Assembly (NCBI RefSeq): GCF_002140175.1
Contig: NZ_NGMO01000001.1
Coordinates: 840,520 to 882,106, forward strand
Direction: 5' to 3'
Length of the DNA: 41,587 nt
Source: Candidatus Enterococcus wittei
Lineage (GTDB): Bacteria > Bacillota > Bacilli > Lactobacillales > Enterococcaceae
Both the position numbers and the translations under genes were made by a program. The first letter of the stretch is position 1. Every line of letters begins with the position of its first letter. Positions 2,353-11,197 of the stretch are shown piece after piece. The notes below the pieces were generated by a model that was not told the DNA's origin, made no database searches, and saw only the letters and a list, made by a program, of their open reading frames with translations.

Positions 2353-2382
2353 TTAAATAAAAAAACCACCTTTTGGAGGTGG
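2353..2382 (-). terminator. rho-independent terminator after DUF3800 gene
   Basis: CCACCT/AGGTGG stem followed on the minus strand by seven T residues. Confidence 0.75.
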
Positions 2383-2470
2383 CCCACAAGGGACGGCGTA
2401 CTTACATTACGCTTAATAATTATTATCGTATTCCTTGTGTCGGCAGTGCGAAATTAATTCGCCTGTAAGT
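2353..2470 (-). other. structured RNA segment, 3' region of the DUF3800 gene
   Basis: This stretch lies between the DUF3800 stop and the cold-shock promoter. It has a nested fold: CACAAGG (2385-2391) with CCTTGTG (2433-2439), enclosing GCGTA/TACGC (2396-2412) and the palindrome TAATAATTATTA (2414-2425); next to it is GCGAA/TTCGC (2448-2462). It ends at a terminator (CCACCT/AGGTGG, 2366-2382, T-run on the minus strand). It could be a 3' UTR structure or an independent small RNA. No family recognised. Confidence 0.45.
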
Positions 2471-2532
2471 TAATCATAAAGTAACTATCTGCTAAATGCA
2501 ATAGTTATGCTTAAAAAAATTTAGCTTATTTT

Positions 2533-3225
2533 TTAAGGCAACCTCATACAAGAATGTTCCGGTATATTTCTCATTTCTCTGTTATCAATCTTGAACGATG
2601 TCCATAATCTGTTTGCCAATATATCACTAGCTTGTATCAAATAATTATGTTTAGAATCGCAATAAGACACATTTATTTCTAACTTACCTTTCCAAATAGG
2701 TTCATAAAATACACCATAATTAAAATTATGAACACCATTTTTTAGTTCTTCATATACTGATTCTTCAAAATTATAATAGCCATTACTTGCAGTGGCTTGC
2801 TCATCCACACAGATACATAGCTTTAAGTCGTCCTCTGGATTCAATAATCCTCTATTTATCAGCAACTTAATTTTTTCTTTGACCAGTCTTTTTAATACAT
2901 AATCTTTATATCTGTGTATTGATTTTTTATGATCTAAAATATTTGACTGTACCCTTTTGATATCAACTGTTAATCCCATACTATGTTCGTTTTTTAAAAC
3001 CCTGTATAATTCGTATTTTTCACTTTTATCTAAATAACAAGCTTTTAATTCTTCTCTGTTACCTCGTTTGGTTTGGATTCGTTGAACCACTTTTTTATAT
3101 TTTCTTTTTGCAATTTCTTTATTATCCTTGCCAATGAATGCGTATCCAGCGTAGACAAAAAATCTATTAGGTGCATTCCTATGCAAGACGCCTGAATCAT
3201 CAAAAAATAAATGTAATTCTTCCAA
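2533..3225 (-). CDS. DUF3800 domain protein
   Basis: 230-aa protein with the DUF3800 signature: FFDDSG at residues 7-12, an internal conserved aspartate (ICVDEQ, about 138-143) and a C-terminal QASDILAN (about 199-206). The family is predicted to have an RNase H-like nuclease fold with acidic catalytic residues and often occurs in prophages and accessory islands; its cellular target is unknown. TTG start at 3225 behind GGAG. It has its own promoter (3264-3292) and terminator, so it is an independent cargo gene at the end of the prophage, possibly a defence or conversion gene (inference). Confidence 0.8.
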   Translation of the reverse strand: MEELHLFFDDSGVLHRNAPNRFFVYAGYAFIGKDNKEIAKRKYKKVVQRIQTKRGNREELKACYLDKSEKYELYRVLKNEHSMGLTVDIKRVQSNILDHKKSIHRYKDYVLKRLVKEKIKLLINRGLLNPEDDLKLCICVDEQATASNGYYNFEESVYEELKNGVHNFNYGVFYEPIWKGKLEINVSYCDSKHNYLIQASDILANRLWTSFKIDNREMRNIPEHSCMRLP

Positions 3226-3329: not shown

Positions 3330-3354
3330 GCCCCTCAACGAGGGGCCATTTTTT
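3330..3354 (+). terminator. hairpin with T-run on the strand opposite to the genes
   Basis: GCCCCTC/GAGGGGC with loop AAC, followed by TTTTTT on the plus strand only. All genes around it are on the minus strand, for which it offers an A-run followed by a hairpin directly after the amidase stop codon. It may stop antisense transcription or act as a weak 3' end for the lysis operon. Confidence 0.5.
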
Positions 3355-4372
3355 ATCGTTGCGGAATATTTAAATACCAGCGTTTATCATGAAAATCTTG
3401 TGCTCCGCCTTTAGTGTTCCCTTCTGGATCATTCGTTGCCCGCATCATTACATAGACTTTCTTATTAGGAAAATTACGCATATTGAAAGATACATGATAA
3501 CCAACATTTCCAGAAGTATTATAAGCTTGGTTTACATCTGGTCTATAAATTCCATCAGCTCTTACTCGAGCTAATTCTTTCCCAGTATTGTAGTCCATAA
3601 TGAAAATATACTCGTATTTATAGTTAGCAATGTGCCATCCAGCCACATGCAAGTTTGCGTTTTCGATTTCCCCAAACTGATCAATGTGGGCGTAATTTGT
3701 TCCATCTGTCAGCGTAGGATTTGCTGCACCTGCTCTAGTTGGATCAATGACTGGTTTATCATCTGAAGTTGTCGGATTTTCATCGGTAAATCCATGAGCT
3801 AAATCATATGCTAATTTTTCTTTACTTACGCCCATTTCAGAAAGATAACCATAAGGATCTGTATGATCGCCCCAGATGTTTTGTGTTACCCATAAATGCG
3901 ATTTGATTCCCGGTTGGTTATAAGGAGTGTCCAACGTTAATGGAATACCATATTTCATTGCTGAATCTCTAGCCAATTCAACGTATGCCTTGTAGTTTTT
4001 CTCAAACGTTGCTTTATCATGTGTTTGTTGTAACTCAATCTGCACAGGACTGTTGGCATTAGCATACGAACCAGCACCGTACTGTACATAACCAGGTTGT
4101 CCAACTTGGTAAACAATTCCGCCATCACCCACAATGTAAGCAGTGTAAGCACTGGTCCATGAACGTTGCATATACTGCGCTTCATTGCGTCCTGTTGCTG
4201 TTTCATTAGCCGTTTCATGCAGTAAAATGTACTGATTATTTGCTATTTGTGAGCTACCTTCATTTGCGCCCAAATTAAATTCATTATTGATCGTATAAGC
4301 AAAACCATTAATCGGCAATAAAAAAAGAGCCGTTAACAGGCTCATCGCAGTAATAGTAATTTTCTTTTTCAT
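3353..4372 (-). CDS. phage endolysin, N-acetylmuramoyl-L-alanine amidase (Amidase_2)
   Basis: 339-aa cell-wall hydrolase predicted to cut the bond between muramic acid and the stem peptide. Residues 1-25 look like a Sec signal peptide (lysines, a hydrophobic core, cleavage near GFA-YT). An Amidase_2 domain follows (about 45-190) with the zinc histidine in LLHETAN and a second histidine in WGDHTDPYGY. After a linker, residues 215-339 form a C-terminal domain probably used for wall binding. It is the last gene of the lysis cassette, 10 bases after the holin. An exported endolysin would need the holin only to depolarise the membrane. Confidence 0.9.
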   Translation of the reverse strand: MKKKITITAMSLLTALFLLPINGFAYTINNEFNLGANEGSSQIANNQYILLHETANETATGRNEAQYMQRSWTSAYTAYIVGDGGIVYQVGQPGYVQYGAGSYANANSPVQIELQQTHDKATFEKNYKAYVELARDSAMKYGIPLTLDTPYNQPGIKSHLWVTQNIWGDHTDPYGYLSEMGVSKEKLAYDLAHGFTDENPTTSDDKPVIDPTRAGAANPTLTDGTNYAHIDQFGEIENANLHVAGWHIANYKYEYIFIMDYNTGKELARVRADGIYRPDVNQAYNTSGNVGYHVSFNMRNFPNKKVYVMMRATNDPEGNTKGGAQDFHDKRWYLNIPQR

Positions 4373-4382
4373 TTGTTTCCTC

Positions 4383-4580
4383 CTATTTTTTCAAATTATA
4401 AGCCGACACACCAGTGATAACGCCTAAAAATGTTGCTACTGCATTGATAGTGAGTACTGTCATATCTGTTCCATTCCATCCATAGGCTTTCCCTAACGTT
4501 GCTACTAACACAGAAGCAGCTGGCAATACTGTTAAAACTGTCCATTTAATGACTTGATAATACTTATCGGGTAAAATCAT
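4383..4580 (-). CDS. phage holin
   Basis: 65-aa membrane protein with two hydrophobic segments (about residues 12-30 and 38-58) separated by a short turn (KAYGWNG), and a basic tail YNLKK. Size, topology and position between an XhlA-like gene and the amidase fit the small phage holins (Hol44/phage_holin_5 type) of lactobacillales phages. It would permeabilise or depolarise the cell membrane at lysis. ATG start; the cassette genes are closely spaced. Confidence 0.85.
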   Translation of the reverse strand: MILPDKYYQVIKWTVLTVLPAASVLVATLGKAYGWNGTDMTVLTINAVATFLGVITGVSAYNLKK

Positions 4581-4602
4581 TTCTTCTTAACTCCTTTCTT
4601 TT

Positions 4603-4896
4603 TTACCTAGACTTTTCTCTAAATAAAGTTTTAATTTGTTGCGTGTGTTCCACCAATTTTTCTGCATGTGTATCTAATCTTTCATCATGTTTCTTCAATT
4701 CTTCATGAATAGTAATGCGATCAGATTTGCTTGCTTCTAAATCTTTAGTCAGTAAATCTAAATTTCGGCTTACTTTTGAAAGAGTCTCAGTAATCTTCGA
4801 GAAAGATGCAGTAATTGGTTTTATTACTAATAAAATCAAAGAAACGATAGCGGTTATTGATCCTGCTATCGCTCCCCATTCCCCTAAATTAATCAT
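4603..4896 (-). CDS. XhlA-like lysis accessory membrane protein
   Basis: 97-aa protein with one N-terminal transmembrane segment (about residues 8-28) followed by a long charged coiled coil (30-95). It precedes the holin, the place of XhlA/hemolysin-like proteins in Bacillus PBSX-type lysis cassettes. ATG at 4896 with AAGGAG upstream. Intron copy 2 ends about 20 bases upstream, just outside the ribosome site, so transcripts must cross the intron and the terminator before it to reach this gene. Confidence 0.7.
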   Translation of the reverse strand: MINLGEWGAIAGSITAIVSLILLVIKPITASFSKITETLSKVSRNLDLLTKDLEASKSDRITIHEELKKHDERLDTHAEKLVEHTQQIKTLFREKSR

Positions 4897-4916
4897 GCGA
4901 CAACTCCTTGAATCAA

Positions 4917-6789
4917 ATCGAGTAGAGGTCCGAATGCATAGATTCGCACCCCTCTCACACCACCATACAAGCCGTTCGGCATATGGCGGTTCAACTTATA
5001 TTACAGTATGCACTTTTAGATAGTAATCTAAGGCAAAGGGGATCCCTCTTTGCTTTAGTCGTTCATTGGATAGGGCTCTGTGAATCACTTTCGATAATCC
5101 AATAAATCGATAACCTTTTCGACAGTAGGTTAAGCCTTTGGCTTCTTCCTCTGGTATTCCCAACTGAACCAAGGAACAGATTCTTTTCCTATAGTTCTTC
5201 CACTGCTTCCAGATAATGACTCGAATTCTTGATCGAAGTTTAGCGTCTATTTCTGCGAGTTTCCTTTTCATTTTCGCTTTACGAAAATAGTTTACCCAAC
5301 CATAAATGACTTGTTTCAGTTTCACGATTCGCTCATCAAGAGAAATACTTTTGTTTCTTTTGGTGAGCTGACGCAATTTCCGCTGAAATTTTTGGACAGA
5401 CTCCTCATGGGGTTTTGGTTGATATTTCTTTGTGTGTTTGTCGTAGTAAAATCCAAAACCTAAAAATTTTGTTCCATTCGGACGGCTGATTCTACTCTTT
5501 TCCGCATTGACAATCAGCCCTAATTTCTTTTCGATAAAGGCCGTTATGGACTGTAAAACTCGATGTGCTGCCTTTTCACTCTTGACAAAAATAATACTAT
5601 CATCTGCATAGCGAACAAAATGTAGACCTCTTGATTCTAATTCTTTATCTAATTCATTTAACATAATGTTGCTTAACAGAGGGCTCAGATTACCACCTTG
5701 CGGGGTACCGATAGGTGTGTCTTCATATTTTCCTCTTTTCATTACGCCACTTACTAGATACTTTCGAATGAGAGAAATGACATCTCCATCTTCTATTGTA
5801 CGCGAAATAATTCGCATAAGTTTGTCGTGATGGACAGTATCAAAGAATCGTTCTAAGTCAATATCCACTAGCCAATCATATCCGTTATTCATATAATCCA
5901 CTGTTTGAACAATTGCCATTTCACAACTGCGGTTTGGTCGAAACCCATAACTATACTCACTGAATTGTTCTTCAAATATAGGTGTAAGAATCTGACTAAT
6001 TGCCTGTTGGATAACTCTATCGACAACAGTTGGGATACCTAGTTGACGCATTTTACCATTTCCTTTTGGTATTTCAACACGTAAGGCTGGTTGCGGATTG
6101 TACTTACGTTGGCGAATTTGAGAACGAAGTTCTTCTTTGTGTTCCCGAAGATGGGATTTTAATTCCTCCACAGTAATTCCATCCACACCGCTTACCCCTT
6201 TATTACGATAAACTCGTTTGTAGGCTTCGTTCATGTTCTGATTACTCAAAATTTGATCTAAAAGTTTCATACTCGTTTCCTCCTTCCTCTCACGTAACGA
6301 AAGACATTTCTCTTTTGATTATCTTCTGAGATACGCTCATACTTTCATCATTAACACATTCAGAAATGTATCTTTCGTGCATTTGTGGTGCAGAAACACT
6401 ATAAGTAGTTCAGTCCTTCGTGGAAAAGTATTTCCACTACTATGACGTCGGCTGACTTCTCACGATAAACCTTTTTCGACCGATTTTCTTAATAGGGAAC
6501 TCCTTAATCGTTCGTGAGACCTCCCAGGGTAAGACAACTAACTTTCATCTTTTACTCGCCTGATTTACTAGATAAGCTTACGCACATCTTTTGGACTTTA
6601 GTTTGTATTGGAACCTCATCCACTTATCTAGCCTTCGTATCAGATTTCTGTTCGTCGAGCCAAGAGTTTGATACACGCTTCCTTCAGCCACATCCTCATG
6701 GATGCCACCTTGCGTTTCTCTAGCGATTGGTCGATGTGTACCCTCGCAGTGGACTTTCACCACCTAGTTAGTTGCCATGCCTGGCGCAC
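4917..6789 (-). mobile_element. group IIC intron, copy 2
   Basis: Same 1873 bp as copies 1 and 3. The 5' end GTGCGCC at 6789 follows the terminator of the 146-aa gene (6793-6817); the 3' end CTCGAT at 4917 lies right before the ribosome site of the XhlA-like gene. The insertion therefore stands between a terminator and the lysis cassette. Confidence 0.9.
4996..6270 (-). CDS. ltrA: group II intron reverse transcriptase/maturase (copy 2)
   Basis: Identical in all 424 residues to the protein at 81-1355: reverse transcriptase with YADD at 221-224, maturase domain, no endonuclease domain. Frame and ribosome site are intact, so the copy should be functional if transcribed. Confidence 0.95.
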   Translation of the reverse strand: MKLLDQILSNQNMNEAYKRVYRNKGVSGVDGITVEELKSHLREHKEELRSQIRQRKYNPQPALRVEIPKGNGKMRQLGIPTVVDRVIQQAISQILTPIFEEQFSEYSYGFRPNRSCEMAIVQTVDYMNNGYDWLVDIDLERFFDTVHHDKLMRIISRTIEDGDVISLIRKYLVSGVMKRGKYEDTPIGTPQGGNLSPLLSNIMLNELDKELESRGLHFVRYADDSIIFVKSEKAAHRVLQSITAFIEKKLGLIVNAEKSRISRPNGTKFLGFGFYYDKHTKKYQPKPHEESVQKFQRKLRQLTKRNKSISLDERIVKLKQVIYGWVNYFRKAKMKRKLAEIDAKLRSRIRVIIWKQWKNYRKRICSLVQLGIPEEEAKGLTYCRKGYRFIGLSKVIHRALSNERLKQRGIPFALDYYLKVHTVI

Positions 6790-6792
6790 AAT

Positions 6793-6817
6793 AAAAAGAC
6801 CACTCAACGAGTGATCT
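6793..6817 (-). terminator. terminator used as intron target (copy 2)
   Basis: Minus-strand AGATCACTC/GAGTGGTCT with loop GTT and TTTTTATT. The 28 bases from AGATCACTC to the intron boundary are the same as at 9277-9304 before intron copy 3. Confidence 0.85.
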
Positions 6818-6858
6818 AAAAAAATCTAAAAGATGTTCATCAGTGTTTTAGACTTATG

Positions 6859-7299
6859 TCATTCATTTTTTTGGTCTTTTTCAAGTAACTCAATTATTTT
6901 ATCAATAGAACTATCTAGTCCCGTGAATTTATAAACTCTTTTTGTTATTTTGCTTCCCTCGCCGCTTAATCCTAAATTACCAGATTTATTTTTTCCATCA
7001 ATAGTAACTCCTGTACCACCTTTGCCATTACCTTCGAAATACTCTTCTATTTCGACAATTTCTGAATTATTGATACGTTCAGCAATTGCAATTTCTTTCA
7101 ATAAATTTGCAATATCCATATTAACTGGTTTCGTTAAAATATCTGAAGTCATATCGCTTGCTTCTTGAGGATTCCCTTTTCCTTCATCATAATTCTCTTT
7201 AGTTTTGATTAAGCCAATTAAGTCAGAAACTAGATAGAAAGTCGGTGGCACACTTGCTTTCGCTACTGCCGCCCCAAGTTGTTTATAGTCAATAGGCAT
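6859..7299 (-). CDS. unrecognised 146-aa protein between two introns
   Basis: I do not recognise this protein. It has a moderately hydrophobic stretch near residues 18-32 (TFYLVSDLIGLI), a helical middle (60-88), a Gly/Lys-rich loop (89-115) and a charged C-terminal helix ending DQKNE. No signal peptide or metal motif is visible. ATG start behind AAAAGGAGG, with its own promoter (7333-7362) and terminator. It is an autonomous transcription unit of about 0.6 kb enclosed by intron copies 2 and 3. It could be prophage cargo or a piece of another locus joined in through the introns. Confidence 0.7.
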   Translation of the reverse strand: MPIDYKQLGAAVAKASVPPTFYLVSDLIGLIKTKENYDEGKGNPQEASDMTSDILTKPVNMDIANLLKEIAIAERINNSEIVEIEEYFEGNGKGGTGVTIDGKNKSGNLGLSGEGSKITKRVYKFTGLDSSIDKIIELLEKDQKNE

Positions 7300-7332
7300 T
7301 TCTTTTTGCCTCCTTTTAGATTTAACAGTTTA

Positions 7333-7362
7333 ATAATAACTAATAATTGTATAATAAAGCAA
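7333..7362 (-). promoter_or_regulatory. promoter of the 146-aa gene
   Basis: Minus-strand TTGCTT, 18-base spacer, TATTAT, about 35 bases before the ATG. Confidence 0.5.
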
Positions 7363-7403
7363 GTCTACTTTAAAACAGAAACTACTTGAAATATAGCCAA
7401 ATA

Positions 7404-9276
7404 ATCGAGTAGAGGTCCGAATGCATAGATTCGCACCCCTCTCACACCACCATACAAGCCGTTCGGCATATGGCGGTTCAACTTATATTACAGTATGCAC
7501 TTTTAGATAGTAATCTAAGGCAAAGGGGATCCCTCTTTGCTTTAGTCGTTCATTGGATAGGGCTCTGTGAATCACTTTCGATAATCCAATAAATCGATAA
7601 CCTTTTCGACAGTAGGTTAAGCCTTTGGCTTCTTCCTCTGGTATTCCCAACTGAACCAAGGAACAGATTCTTTTCCTATAGTTCTTCCACTGCTTCCAGA
7701 TAATGACTCGAATTCTTGATCGAAGTTTAGCGTCTATTTCTGCGAGTTTCCTTTTCATTTTCGCTTTACGAAAATAGTTTACCCAACCATAAATGACTTG
7801 TTTCAGTTTCACGATTCGCTCATCAAGAGAAATACTTTTGTTTCTTTTGGTGAGCTGACGCAATTTCCGCTGAAATTTTTGGACAGACTCCTCATGGGGT
7901 TTTGGTTGATATTTCTTTGTGTGTTTGTCGTAGTAAAATCCAAAACCTAAAAATTTTGTTCCATTCGGACGGCTGATTCTACTCTTTTCCGCATTGACAA
8001 TCAGCCCTAATTTCTTTTCGATAAAGGCCGTTATGGACTGTAAAACTCGATGTGCTGCCTTTTCACTCTTGACAAAAATAATACTATCATCTGCATAGCG
8101 AACAAAATGTAGACCTCTTGATTCTAATTCTTTATCTAATTCATTTAACATAATGTTGCTTAACAGAGGGCTCAGATTACCACCTTGCGGGGTACCGATA
8201 GGTGTGTCTTCATATTTTCCTCTTTTCATTACGCCACTTACTAGATACTTTCGAATGAGAGAAATGACATCTCCATCTTCTATTGTACGCGAAATAATTC
8301 GCATAAGTTTGTCGTGATGGACAGTATCAAAGAATCGTTCTAAGTCAATATCCACTAGCCAATCATATCCGTTATTCATATAATCCACTGTTTGAACAAT
8401 TGCCATTTCACAACTGCGGTTTGGTCGAAACCCATAACTATACTCACTGAATTGTTCTTCAAATATAGGTGTAAGAATCTGACTAATTGCCTGTTGGATA
8501 ACTCTATCGACAACAGTTGGGATACCTAGTTGACGCATTTTACCATTTCCTTTTGGTATTTCAACACGTAAGGCTGGTTGCGGATTGTACTTACGTTGGC
8601 GAATTTGAGAACGAAGTTCTTCTTTGTGTTCCCGAAGATGGGATTTTAATTCCTCCACAGTAATTCCATCCACACCGCTTACCCCTTTATTACGATAAAC
8701 TCGTTTGTAGGCTTCGTTCATGTTCTGATTACTCAAAATTTGATCTAAAAGTTTCATACTCGTTTCCTCCTTCCTCTCACGTAACGAAAGACATTTCTCT
8801 TTTGATTATCTTCTGAGATACGCTCATACTTTCATCATTAACACATTCAGAAATGTATCTTTCGTGCATTTGTGGTGCAGAAACACTATAAGTAGTTCAG
8901 TCCTTCGTGGAAAAGTATTTCCACTACTATGACGTCGGCTGACTTCTCACGATAAACCTTTTTCGACCGATTTTCTTAATAGGGAACTCCTTAATCGTTC
9001 GTGAGACCTCCCAGGGTAAGACAACTAACTTTCATCTTTTACTCGCCTGATTTACTAGATAAGCTTACGCACATCTTTTGGACTTTAGTTTGTATTGGAA
9101 CCTCATCCACTTATCTAGCCTTCGTATCAGATTTCTGTTCGTCGAGCCAAGAGTTTGATACACGCTTCCTTCAGCCACATCCTCATGGATGCCACCTTGC
9201 GTTTCTCTAGCGATTGGTCGATGTGTACCCTCGCAGTGGACTTTCACCACCTAGTTAGTTGCCATGCCTGGCGCAC
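7404..9276 (-). mobile_element. group IIC intron, copy 3
   Basis: Third identical 1873-bp copy. The 5' end GTGCGCC at 9276 follows the terminator that closes the structured RNA region (9280-9304); the 3' end CTCGAT at 7404 is followed by A/T-rich sequence leading to the promoter of the 146-aa gene. Confidence 0.9.
7483..8757 (-). CDS. ltrA: group II intron reverse transcriptase/maturase (copy 3)
   Basis: Identical in all 424 residues to the proteins of copies 1 and 2, with intact YADD and maturase domain. Confidence 0.95.
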   Translation of the reverse strand: MKLLDQILSNQNMNEAYKRVYRNKGVSGVDGITVEELKSHLREHKEELRSQIRQRKYNPQPALRVEIPKGNGKMRQLGIPTVVDRVIQQAISQILTPIFEEQFSEYSYGFRPNRSCEMAIVQTVDYMNNGYDWLVDIDLERFFDTVHHDKLMRIISRTIEDGDVISLIRKYLVSGVMKRGKYEDTPIGTPQGGNLSPLLSNIMLNELDKELESRGLHFVRYADDSIIFVKSEKAAHRVLQSITAFIEKKLGLIVNAEKSRISRPNGTKFLGFGFYYDKHTKKYQPKPHEESVQKFQRKLRQLTKRNKSISLDERIVKLKQVIYGWVNYFRKAKMKRKLAEIDAKLRSRIRVIIWKQWKNYRKRICSLVQLGIPEEEAKGLTYCRKGYRFIGLSKVIHRALSNERLKQRGIPFALDYYLKVHTVI

Positions 9277-9279
9277 AAT

Positions 9280-9304
9280 AAAAAGACCACTCAACGAGTG
9301 ATCT
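9280..9304 (-). terminator. terminator of the structured RNA, intron target (copy 3)
   Basis: Minus-strand AGATCACTC, loop GTT, GAGTGGTCT, then TTTTTATT and the intron 5' end. Its AGTGGTC arm is fully complementary to the loop of the hairpin at 9774-9790 (GACCACT on the minus strand), upstream of the RNA. Confidence 0.85.
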
Positions 9305-9619
9305 CATATGTAATAGCAACCTACACACAAACAAGTCTGATACTTCCTGCACCTCACCACTGCCACATCCCTCGGTTGCTAACGAATACTGAAACAGAAT
9401 ACCGTCTCTGTTCATGACCAACGCGACAGTACAAAGCTTTGTCGCAAGCAGGTTATCGTATTCCTAATAACCCCAACTAATGTTTCTCTCCTAACCTACA
9501 CCTGAGAGTGGCACACGTCTGCGCTAGTATTTTATGCCTTCTAACTGCTAGTAGCATCCCGACTAGTCAGCCAATTCATCGGCATCCGATAAGATGAATT
9601 GTTTCCGTAGGTTCCTTAA

Positions 9620-9726
9620 GTCACTGGCAATGAATCGAACATTGCATGGTCAAATCATAAAACGTTAAGGTTATCCCTCGACGTATTGACCTTATTTTTA
9701 AGCGTTACCCTTTCCGCCACAGTGAC
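9620..9726 (-). ncRNA. tRNA-like domain at the 5' side of the structured RNA
   Basis: A 7-bp acceptor-like stem (GTCACTG 9726-9720 with CAGTGAC 9626-9620) is followed by TGGCGGAA and a GCG/CGC D-arm with a GGG-containing loop, then a T-arm GCAATG/CATTGC with the canonical loop TTCGATT that abuts the acceptor stem. Between D- and T-arm are 56 nt instead of a normal anticodon arm; TAAAA/TTTTA closes an enlarged arm with no 7-base anticodon loop I can define. CCA is not encoded. It could be a processing signal for RNase P/Z, a decayed tRNA-Leu-like gene, or a domain of the large RNA. Confidence 0.55.
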
Positions 9727-9736
9727 AAAATTAATA

Positions 9737-9764
9737 TTGTGAAAATAAATACTAAGCGTATAAT
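9737..9764 (+). promoter_or_regulatory. promoter of the zinc-ribbon gene, divergent to the RNA
   Basis: Plus-strand TTGTGA, 16-base spacer, TATAAT. The transcript would begin near 9771 and carry the hairpin CAGCG/CGCTG (9774-9790) just before the ribosome site. Confidence 0.6.
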
Positions 9765-9816
9765 TTTAGTTATCAGCGAGTGGTCCGCTGAAATAAATTA
9801 AAAGGTGGTGAACCAT

Positions 9817-9987
9817 TTGAAAAAAGTTAAAATTAAAGTTAAAACACCTAGTAAAACTAAAATCAGACGCGAATTAACTAAAGCTGTACGAAAAAACCTT
9901 CTTTGTTTTAATTGTGGAAGAAAATTACCTAGCGGAGTTGCTAGTACAGTTACTTGCCCAAGCTGTGGTGCAAAAACAAAACTATAG
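9817..9987 (+). CDS. small basic zinc-ribbon protein
   Basis: 56-aa lysine-rich protein. Residues 1-28 are strongly basic (KKVKIKVKTPSK...), and residues 30-52 hold a CFNCG...CPSCG pair that would bind zinc as in ribbon-type nucleic-acid-binding proteins. I choose the TTG start at 9817 because AAGGTGGTG ends six bases upstream; an in-frame GTG at 9805 would lie inside that site. It is transcribed away from the structured RNA and ends exactly where the opposing 28-aa gene ends. A nucleic-acid-binding role is inferred from composition only. Confidence 0.72.
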   Translation: MKKVKIKVKTPSKTKIRRELTKAVRKNLLCFNCGRKLPSGVASTVTCPSCGAKTKL

Positions 9988-10780: not shown

Positions 10781-11197
10781 TTATTTATAAGCAATTATTC
10801 TTCCGTGTTTATATGCTTCTGCAAACTCTATTAGAGCTTCCGACTTCATCCGTTGTATACTTCTTTCTGAATAACCCACTTCACGGCTAATTCTGTAGTT
10901 TGAGAAGCTATCTGGCACACAAAAGCTATAGTAGAGTATCTGACGACTAATCAGACTAAGAGCCATCAAAGCCGCTAGAATCGCATCTCTCTCTGCTTCT
11001 ATATCCATCATCTGAATGATTGCGTCTTCTGCCTTATTGCCGTGCTTCGGCGCCTTCGGCATATCCGTAATAATCGGCGACTTAATATCTATCAAAGAGC
11101 GACCTGCCATCCGCTCCAAACGCCGAAAGTTCTTCAGCACATCTCTCGCATTACATCTTGTCTGTTTGAAATCTACCTCTCGTAACAATTGCATCAA
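10781..11197 (-). CDS. arpU: ArpU family late transcriptional regulator
   Basis: 138-aa protein of the phage ArpU/RinA type, named after a regulator of muramidase export in E. hirae and now known as the activator of late genes in many prophages. The C-terminal half (about 85-130) is a sigma-like helix-turn-helix (LSLISRQILYYSF...YRISREVGYSERSIQRMKSEAL). TTG at 11197, followed by ATG, sits nine bases after AAAGGAG. It closes the early operon, as usual; packaging genes should follow but do not in this sequence. Confidence 0.85.
   Translation of the reverse strand: MMQLLREVDFKQTRCNARDVLKNFRRLERMAGRSLIDIKSPIITDMPKAPKHGNKAEDAIIQMMDIEAERDAILAALMALSLISRQILYYSFCVPDSFSNYRISREVGYSERSIQRMKSEALIEFAEAYKHGRIIAYK

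Follow-up and report, generated by a model that had tools for sequence, protein, structure and literature searches.

A tRNA-like domain lacking an anticodon arm begins a modular noncoding RNA of enterococcal phages

A structured noncoding RNA lies on the minus strand at positions 9277-9726 of the 41,587-nucleotide stretch of Candidatus Enterococcus wittei DNA analysed here (the window). Read from its 5' end, it consists of a 107-nt tRNA-like domain (TLS), modules A, D and C, and a terminator; modules A and D show covariation. The TLS represents a family in which a 7-bp acceptor stem and a 6-bp T-stem add up to 13 bp, the residues of the tRNA elbow are kept, and the anticodon arm has given way to unrelated inserts. 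The evidence for the family is good; its function we infer. The initial annotation of this DNA described a structured phage RNA and offered three options for it: a member of a known family of large phage RNAs (GOLLD or ROOL), a short variant, or a new family. Below we describe the RNA and its relatives, explain why the last of these options proves right, and weigh what such an RNA might do.

Results

The RNA of the window

The stretch had been described as about 450 nt without a usable reading frame. This description holds: the longest open reading frames (ORFs) that overlap the element encode 56 aa (9251-9421, minus strand) and 52 aa (9259-9417, plus strand), and relatives exchange whole modules. 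The minimum free energy of the window RNA has a z-score of -3.5, reached by none of 100 shuffles. Where at least eight perfect inverted repeats had been reported, we count 13 of at least 6 bp, in excess of the 5.4 +/- 2.2 found in dinucleotide shuffles, none of 200 of which reach 13. Two repeats are at least 7 bp long, a count that is not unusual (65 of 200 shuffles), and two are at least 8 bp long (14 of 200).

The TLS occupies 9620-9726 (minus strand, like all parts of the RNA). It shows covariation and scores 73.3 bits (E 9.9e-18) against our model R1, the window being one of the 28 sequences on which R1 was trained. Its acceptor stem pairs GTCACTG with CAGTGAC (9726-9720/9626-9620). Next come the D-arm (9717-9702), the insert that replaces the anticodon arm (9701-9647), the equivalent of U48 (9646), and a 6-bp T-stem (9645-9640/9632-9627) enclosing the T-loop UUCGAUU (9639-9633). 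The earlier observation of a tRNA-like 5' domain with a TTCGATT T-loop is thereby confirmed at these positions. So is the enlargement of the region where an anticodon arm would be, except that alignment and fold give it a length of 55 nt and not 56.

Module A (142 nt, 9478-9619) also occurs in the lytic Schiekvirus phages Porthos and EFP01. Four of its 28 predicted pairs are changed on both sides among 15 distinct full-length versions aligned, and an 18-nt hairpin within it (9525-9508) resembles the 5' hairpin of mcrA RNA. Module D (96 nt, 9382-9477) contains covarying hairpins; 8 of 20 predicted pairs are changed on both sides in an alignment of six of its seven distinct versions, one having been left out. 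Module C (67 nt, 9315-9381) is closed by the stem TAGCAACC/GGTTGCTA. A spacer and intrinsic terminator follow (9277-9314; GATCACTC-GTT-GAGTGGTC-TTTTT) and are common to relatives. The terminator that the initial annotation saw at the 3' end lies at 9305-9283 (terminator-like sites: two found, 0.7 expected).

Upstream of the RNA is a gene of the phrog_248 transcriptional activator family (10781-11197, minus strand). On the other side, a group II intron with a reverse transcriptase ORF (7403-9276, minus strand; Rfam RF02001/RF01998) begins right after the T-run of the terminator. Three minus-strand copies of this intron, identical over 1874 nt, are present (1-1874, 4916-6789 and 7403-9276); each starts directly 3' of the T-run of a terminator-like hairpin, and the first reaches the window edge. 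Inspection of ORF lists by eye for 3353-9276 shows lysis-type genes after the RNA, separated from it by intron copies and by no obvious head or tail genes; the prophage may be deleted within this region. Elsewhere in the window, a DUF3800-I RNA (2354-2473, minus strand, 78.4 bits in Rfam) lies just downstream of an ORF (2533-3225) that may be its DUF3800 gene.

A hairpin at 9774-9790, upstream of the RNA, had been noted for a loop fully complementary to an arm of the terminator at the far end. Both the hairpin and this complementarity of its minus-strand loop are confirmed. Pairing of the two is nevertheless unsupported as a family trait, because the hairpin is found upstream of just 32 of 80 distinct relatives and probably belongs to the 5' leader of a divergent plus-strand gene at 9805. 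A promoter-like TTGTGA-16-TATAAT on the plus strand (9737-9764; 1.4 expected by chance) would place it there. On that strand the hairpin is weakly like the Rfam family Ref1C (19.7 bits, cut-off 90). A Ref1C RNA above the cut-off (93.7 bits) occurs at L051:2459-2577 (plus strand), on a contig that also carries the element, and its AGUGGUC loop resembles the window's hairpin.

Covariation in the tRNA-like domain

Eighty distinct phage TLS sequences comprise 59 acceptor sequences and 70 insert clusters. Alignment A2 contains 28 domains from 27 insert clusters; only the window, which replaces L001, and L008 share one. L210 (coding) was left out, as were two clusters with a 12-bp stack from L143, L195 and L216. 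Residue positions in the TLS follow the tRNA numbering used for elbow residues. Invariant in all 28 rows are U8, G9-A15, G19, U48, the first G of the T-stem, G53, C56 and C61. As aligned, U8, A14, A15, G19, U48, G53, C56 and C61 are the positions that tRNAs need for the elbow.

Covariation among homologues, which the initial annotation had named as a check, is evident in these alignments. The acceptor, D-stem and T-stem of A2 are 99.1% paired, with 50 double-change cells, and all five measures of covariation are reached in none of 500 shuffles. A wider alignment, A5 (30 sequences), is 99.7% paired, with 120 double-change cells over 13 pairs and a score of 0.872 against 0.210 in shuffles; the five measures are reached in 0, 1, 0, 3 and 0 of 500. 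Here G10, G19, U48 and C56 are present in at least 90% of rows and are not invariant. The extraction missed seven loci (L260, L269, L278, L284, L303, L304 and L305), of which L303 and L305 were added to A5 by eye. Alignment A6, of 70 sequences from other phages, was drawn from 69 of at least 120 loci, selected among carriers of the 13-bp domain and fitted to the model; it is 98.7% paired over 16 pairs, with 287 double-change cells and all five measures at 0 of 500. The outer (sixth) pair of the T-stem is G-C or G-U throughout A5. In A6 it shows six double-change cells, and the 13-bp stack is therefore supported.

The percentages paired are inflated, since retrieval by pattern, pairing filter and model favoured paired candidates and A6 was fitted to a model. 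Compensatory changes across 59 acceptor sequences would nonetheless be hard to explain by such a bias.

What of the inserts? They are barely more stable than chance (mean z -0.78 for 72 inserts, against -0.33 for control stretches), so they need not be folded cargo; that they fold is weakly supported. When an early set of 68 inserts was compared with all loci collected by then for antisense targets, 1266 of 1335 matches fell in a TLS context and 69 elsewhere. Among 40 of these 69, in unannotated sequence, no coding target was recognised; most of the 40 look like variant-D-arm domains or cut contigs.

Distribution of relatives

BLAST finds the RNA or parts of it in eight phage and six plasmid records, all of Enterococcus. 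Of 15 genomes of the genus, 10 match, the window's own genome among them; in some of these the match is to the terminator only. A 16-base D-arm pattern matched 115 viral stretches, a number that includes chance matches (at least L030, L046, L065, L107 and L109). With duplicates removed across all loci, 83 distinct candidates of the window's subtype remain, 75 of them with a T-loop motif downstream; ARAGORN calls one of 95 relatives. Fifty-eight distinct elements are complete to a recognised terminator; 51 come from IMG/VR contigs and seven from genomes or a named phage. They are 193 to 1010 nt long, and simple pattern matching resolves them into 22 module strings. Twelve consist of the domain, module C and terminator only, and in four no known module is matched between the domain and the terminator. 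Some loci depart from the plan: L042 and L070 lack a T-arm after the D-arm, with an ORF occupying the space ahead of the terminator, and in L091 an ORF follows the domain. L040 and L271 have a second tRNA-like module; its acceptor, TGACGTG/CACGTCA, resembles that of the phage tRNA-Lys, but its interior is altered.

A second D-arm pattern by itself gave at least 121 matches in at least 120 viral stretches. Among the 121 listed, 83 are 13-bp domains, 16 are 12-bp domains and 22 are neither; random positions pass the same domain test in 10 of 2400 cases. ARAGORN calls a tRNA in 13 of the 16 listed 12-bp domains and in one of the 83 listed 13-bp domains, this single call being a tRNA-Lys within the insert of L401. 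The T-loop is UGCAAAU in 76 of those 83, against UUCGAUU in the window. Named phages in whose sequence the domain was read include PSA and LP-101 of Listeria and Sha1, phiJL-1 and LP65 of Lactobacillus, along with EH-TP1, Porthos and EFP01. L143 also has tRNA-model matches of 96 and 156 nt (7943-8038 and 8166-8321, minus strand), perhaps further tRNAs with large inserts.

Among 398 genomes of the phylum, R1 at E<=1e-11 matches the window's own genome only. A second model, R2, matched 8 of 348 at E<=1e-9, a threshold beyond the reach of the window's own genome. Two of the eight (L436 and L437) are ordinary tRNA-Leu; L431, L432, L434 and L435 have inserts, L435 with a 12-bp stack; and L430 and L433 were not recovered by the domain pattern. 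The wider tallies of model matches give no family count, because many of them are tRNA-Leu of the ordinary kind, 83-85 nt long and scoring about 41-51 bits. In 51 genome contig stretches with the D-arm pattern, the 13-bp domain is present in the nine from Enterococcus and absent from the other 42. The evidence for spread beyond the order is thin.

The TLS also occurs by itself. Eight genomes of a single genus (f7 g44; L295-L302) carry it, with one fixed insert, downstream of an azlC-like gene (assigned by Pfam on a fragment of one genome). Inspection by eye finds a TTGCAT box and a box resembling TATTAT upstream of it, and terminators of varying sequence follow. The domain is nearly unchanged among the eight while the flanks drift, which points to an RNA with an action of its own. 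We infer that the genus belongs to Listeriaceae, because a locus of its sister genus g23 matches Listeria phages.

Comparison with known RNA families

Does the RNA belong to a described family? A gathering-level Rfam search finds no family covering the window TLS, and at E<=10 the region 9200-9900 gives six weak matches, none of them ROOL, GOLLD, tRNA or tmRNA. With no match to RF03087 (membership at 99.1 bits or more) or to GOLLD, whose model we take to be in the Rfam library, the proposed membership in ROOL or GOLLD is not supported. The same search gave no match to T-box leaders, which presumably also have Rfam models, or to rli62 (RF01486). The score for mcrA (RF03010) is 10.2 bits at 9508-9525, where 57.6 bits is the threshold. 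No tmRNA was called.

A check for tRNAs had likewise been suggested. ARAGORN reports none in the window, and RF00005 has no match at E<=10. The TLS has the elbow residues and the D- and T-arms of a tRNA. In place of a 5-bp anticodon stem with a 7-nt loop, however, it has the 55-nt insert, and its acceptor/T stack is 13 bp where that of tRNA is 12 bp. The R1 match, 13-bp stack and insert place it in the anticodon-less family described above. An open-licence literature search turned up no recognisable description of the domain, and none of the prophage noncoding RNAs in the accessible part of PMC8554106 could be placed here.

Genomic setting

In EH-TP1, PSA, LP-101 and Sha1 a late transcriptional regulator comes first, followed by the RNA and, after it, HNH or small genes; terminase, where visible, lies beyond these. 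EH-TP1 has an additional ImmA/IrrE gene between the regulator and the RNA. The TLS of phiJL-1 is at the right end of the genome, and those of LP65 and the Schiekvirus phages lie within tRNA clusters. The next start codon is 21-40 nt from the terminator in 56 of the 58 complete elements by a loose pattern. A stricter search puts the next ORF at 4-52 nt in 41 of 48 and at 86-242 nt in seven, and finds no ORF in the remaining 10 of 58. RNAs of about 60 nt that are tRNA-like and have almost no anticodon arm (L439:1406-1465 and L441 near 1721) lie upstream of the TLS in phiJL-1 and Sha1.

Other noncoding RNAs adjoin the TLS. In L382 (260.7 bits) and in two closely related phages, Porthos (267.1 bits) and EFP01 (264.8 bits), a gap of 13 nt separates the end of ROOL from the TLS downstream; in L335 (122.8 bits) the gap is 175 nt. 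In L357 nhmmer finds an interrupted ROOL homologue, unreported by Rfam, at 175 nt, and in LP65 ROOL is in the same tRNA cluster without adjoining the TLS. Five of 64 locus scans (12, 18, 20 and 16 sources; L143, L051 and others were rescanned separately) contain ROOL at the RF03087 threshold: L382, L335, L440 and the Porthos and EFP01 loci (L004 and L005). The link to ROOL that had been guessed thus survives at other loci of the family and fails for the window RNA itself: the TLS element shares loci with ROOL and is not ROOL. A 51-nt mcrA module lies downstream of the TLS, before HNH or the first late gene, in L303, L305, L306, PSA and LP-101; in the last two, Rfam places rli62 immediately upstream.

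Discussion

The initial annotation's picture of a structured phage RNA, possibly of a new family, stands, while its known-family membership and long-range pairing do not. Comparison shows that the 7-bp acceptor, 6-bp T-stem, D-stem and elbow residues are kept and unrelated inserts stand in for the anticodon arm; that modules A, D and C, real tRNAs, mcrA and ROOL lie beside the TLS in mosaic order; that elements of the window's subtype finish with a terminator, in most cases a short way ahead of the following gene; and that the TLS is also found alone in the chromosome, as a gene with its own promoter-like and terminator-like sequences.

The best reading, which we hold tentatively and with less than even confidence, is a trans-acting tRNA mimic that serves as a scaffold for interchangeable RNA modules. 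The late regulator would activate a promoter upstream of the RNA, and most transcripts would end at the terminator, giving a discrete RNA of about 200-1000 nt. Through its elbow it would be bound or trimmed by tRNA-handling proteins of the host (RNase P, RNase Z or others), or would occupy them. The inserts and modules would be exchangeable cargo or bait that the scaffold displays and that acts in trans on a target in the host. Our leading guess is a decoy or anti-defence role, which would explain the rapid replacement of inserts.

Because the terminator is usually close before the next gene, the main rival to the trans-acting mimic is a cis-acting leader: the RNA would be the regulated 5' end of a late transcript, the terminator an attenuator, and the fold and modules would control read-through. 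This fits the place of the RNA, which follows a late regulator and precedes HNH or small late genes, and the short distance to the next start codon in most elements. The stand-alone copies with their own terminator, the copies inside tRNA clusters of Schiekvirus phages and LP65, and the interchange of modules, real tRNAs included, speak against it, and we consider a leader unlikely, if well worth keeping in mind. The seven elements in 48 whose next ORF is 86-242 nt away weaken it slightly; the trans-acting reading gains no support from that count. We think it improbable that the composite RNA forms or supports an RNA-only oligomer, as ROOL- and GOLLD-like RNAs might, with the TLS as an end cap or processing site. 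GOLLD and ROOL do occur near tRNA islands, according to the part of PMC12286853 available, and ROOL ends 13 nt short of the TLS in L382, Porthos and EFP01 and 175 nt short of it in L335; the window RNA, however, has no ROOL, and 16 of the 58 complete elements have module C alone or no known module.

Were the TLS a processing signal only, RNase P and RNase Z would cut at it to free the flanking RNAs, and the inserts would be neutral. Conserved acceptor and T-arm with freely varying inserts are what one would expect; a single insert nearly invariant in eight genomes is not, and a 13-bp stack would be unusual for such a signal, so that we give this reading little credence. Decay of functionless tRNA pseudogenes in phage tRNA clusters is very improbable. 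ARAGORN rejects nearly all TLS sequences and the D-arm, we presume, resembles that of tRNA-Leu, yet 59 acceptor sequences kept paired, conserved elbow residues and a consistent 13-bp stack are not the marks of decay; the covariation already contradicts it.

More broadly, it is quite possible, though we would not yet rely on it, that tRNA mimics without an anticodon arm and with a 13-bp acceptor/T stack form a large class, so far undescribed, in Bacillota phages. Each would be a scaffold that exchanges inserts and modules (ROOL, mcrA and whole tRNAs among them), often at the head of a late operon, and that engages or diverts a host tRNA-binding factor; one bacterial genus would have adopted it as a chromosomal small RNA. 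If so, orphan phage RNAs (ROOL, mcrA and possibly rli62) would unite as one kind of modular locus with a tRNA-like landmark, and a host factor that binds the elbow would be a lead to their role. Engineered tRNA scaffolds serve to express RNAs, and natural tRNA scaffolds with exchangeable inserts would parallel them. Phage and bacterial genomes are probably under-annotated in this respect, since ARAGORN and the Rfam tRNA model mostly miss the TLS. The copy that stands alone in the chromosome would lend itself to a simple genetic test.

Among known systems, tmRNA has a tRNA-like end in which the anticodon arm is replaced; the TLS differs in being a continuous 107-nt domain, and we noticed no tag frame. 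Class II tRNA-Leu shares the elbow residues and the D-arm sequence; the TLS lacks its anticodon arm and has a 13-bp stack instead of 12 bp. ROOL (RF03087), like the TLS element, is a phage noncoding RNA near tRNA genes whose function is unknown, whereas the window RNA is modular, starts with a tRNA-like fold and has no ROOL match. GOLLD, a large phage RNA that at times has tRNAs in its linker (as described in the available part of PMC12286853), differs in that the window RNA has no match to it at E<=10. With mcrA RNA (RF03010) module A shares only the 18-nt hairpin. The Listeria RNA rli62 (RF01486), which appears in a table of PMC2996996, is a separate element that adjoins the TLS in PSA and LP-101. 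By analogy, the window RNA would work most like the Bacillus cereus pseudo-tRNA tRNAOther, proposed in the accessible part of PMC3399842 as a tRNA-like element inside a larger RNA; tRNAOther, unlike the TLS, carries a Trp anticodon and, in that account, is not modular. We rate the TLS RNA as a tRNA-like phage RNA with a distinct architecture.
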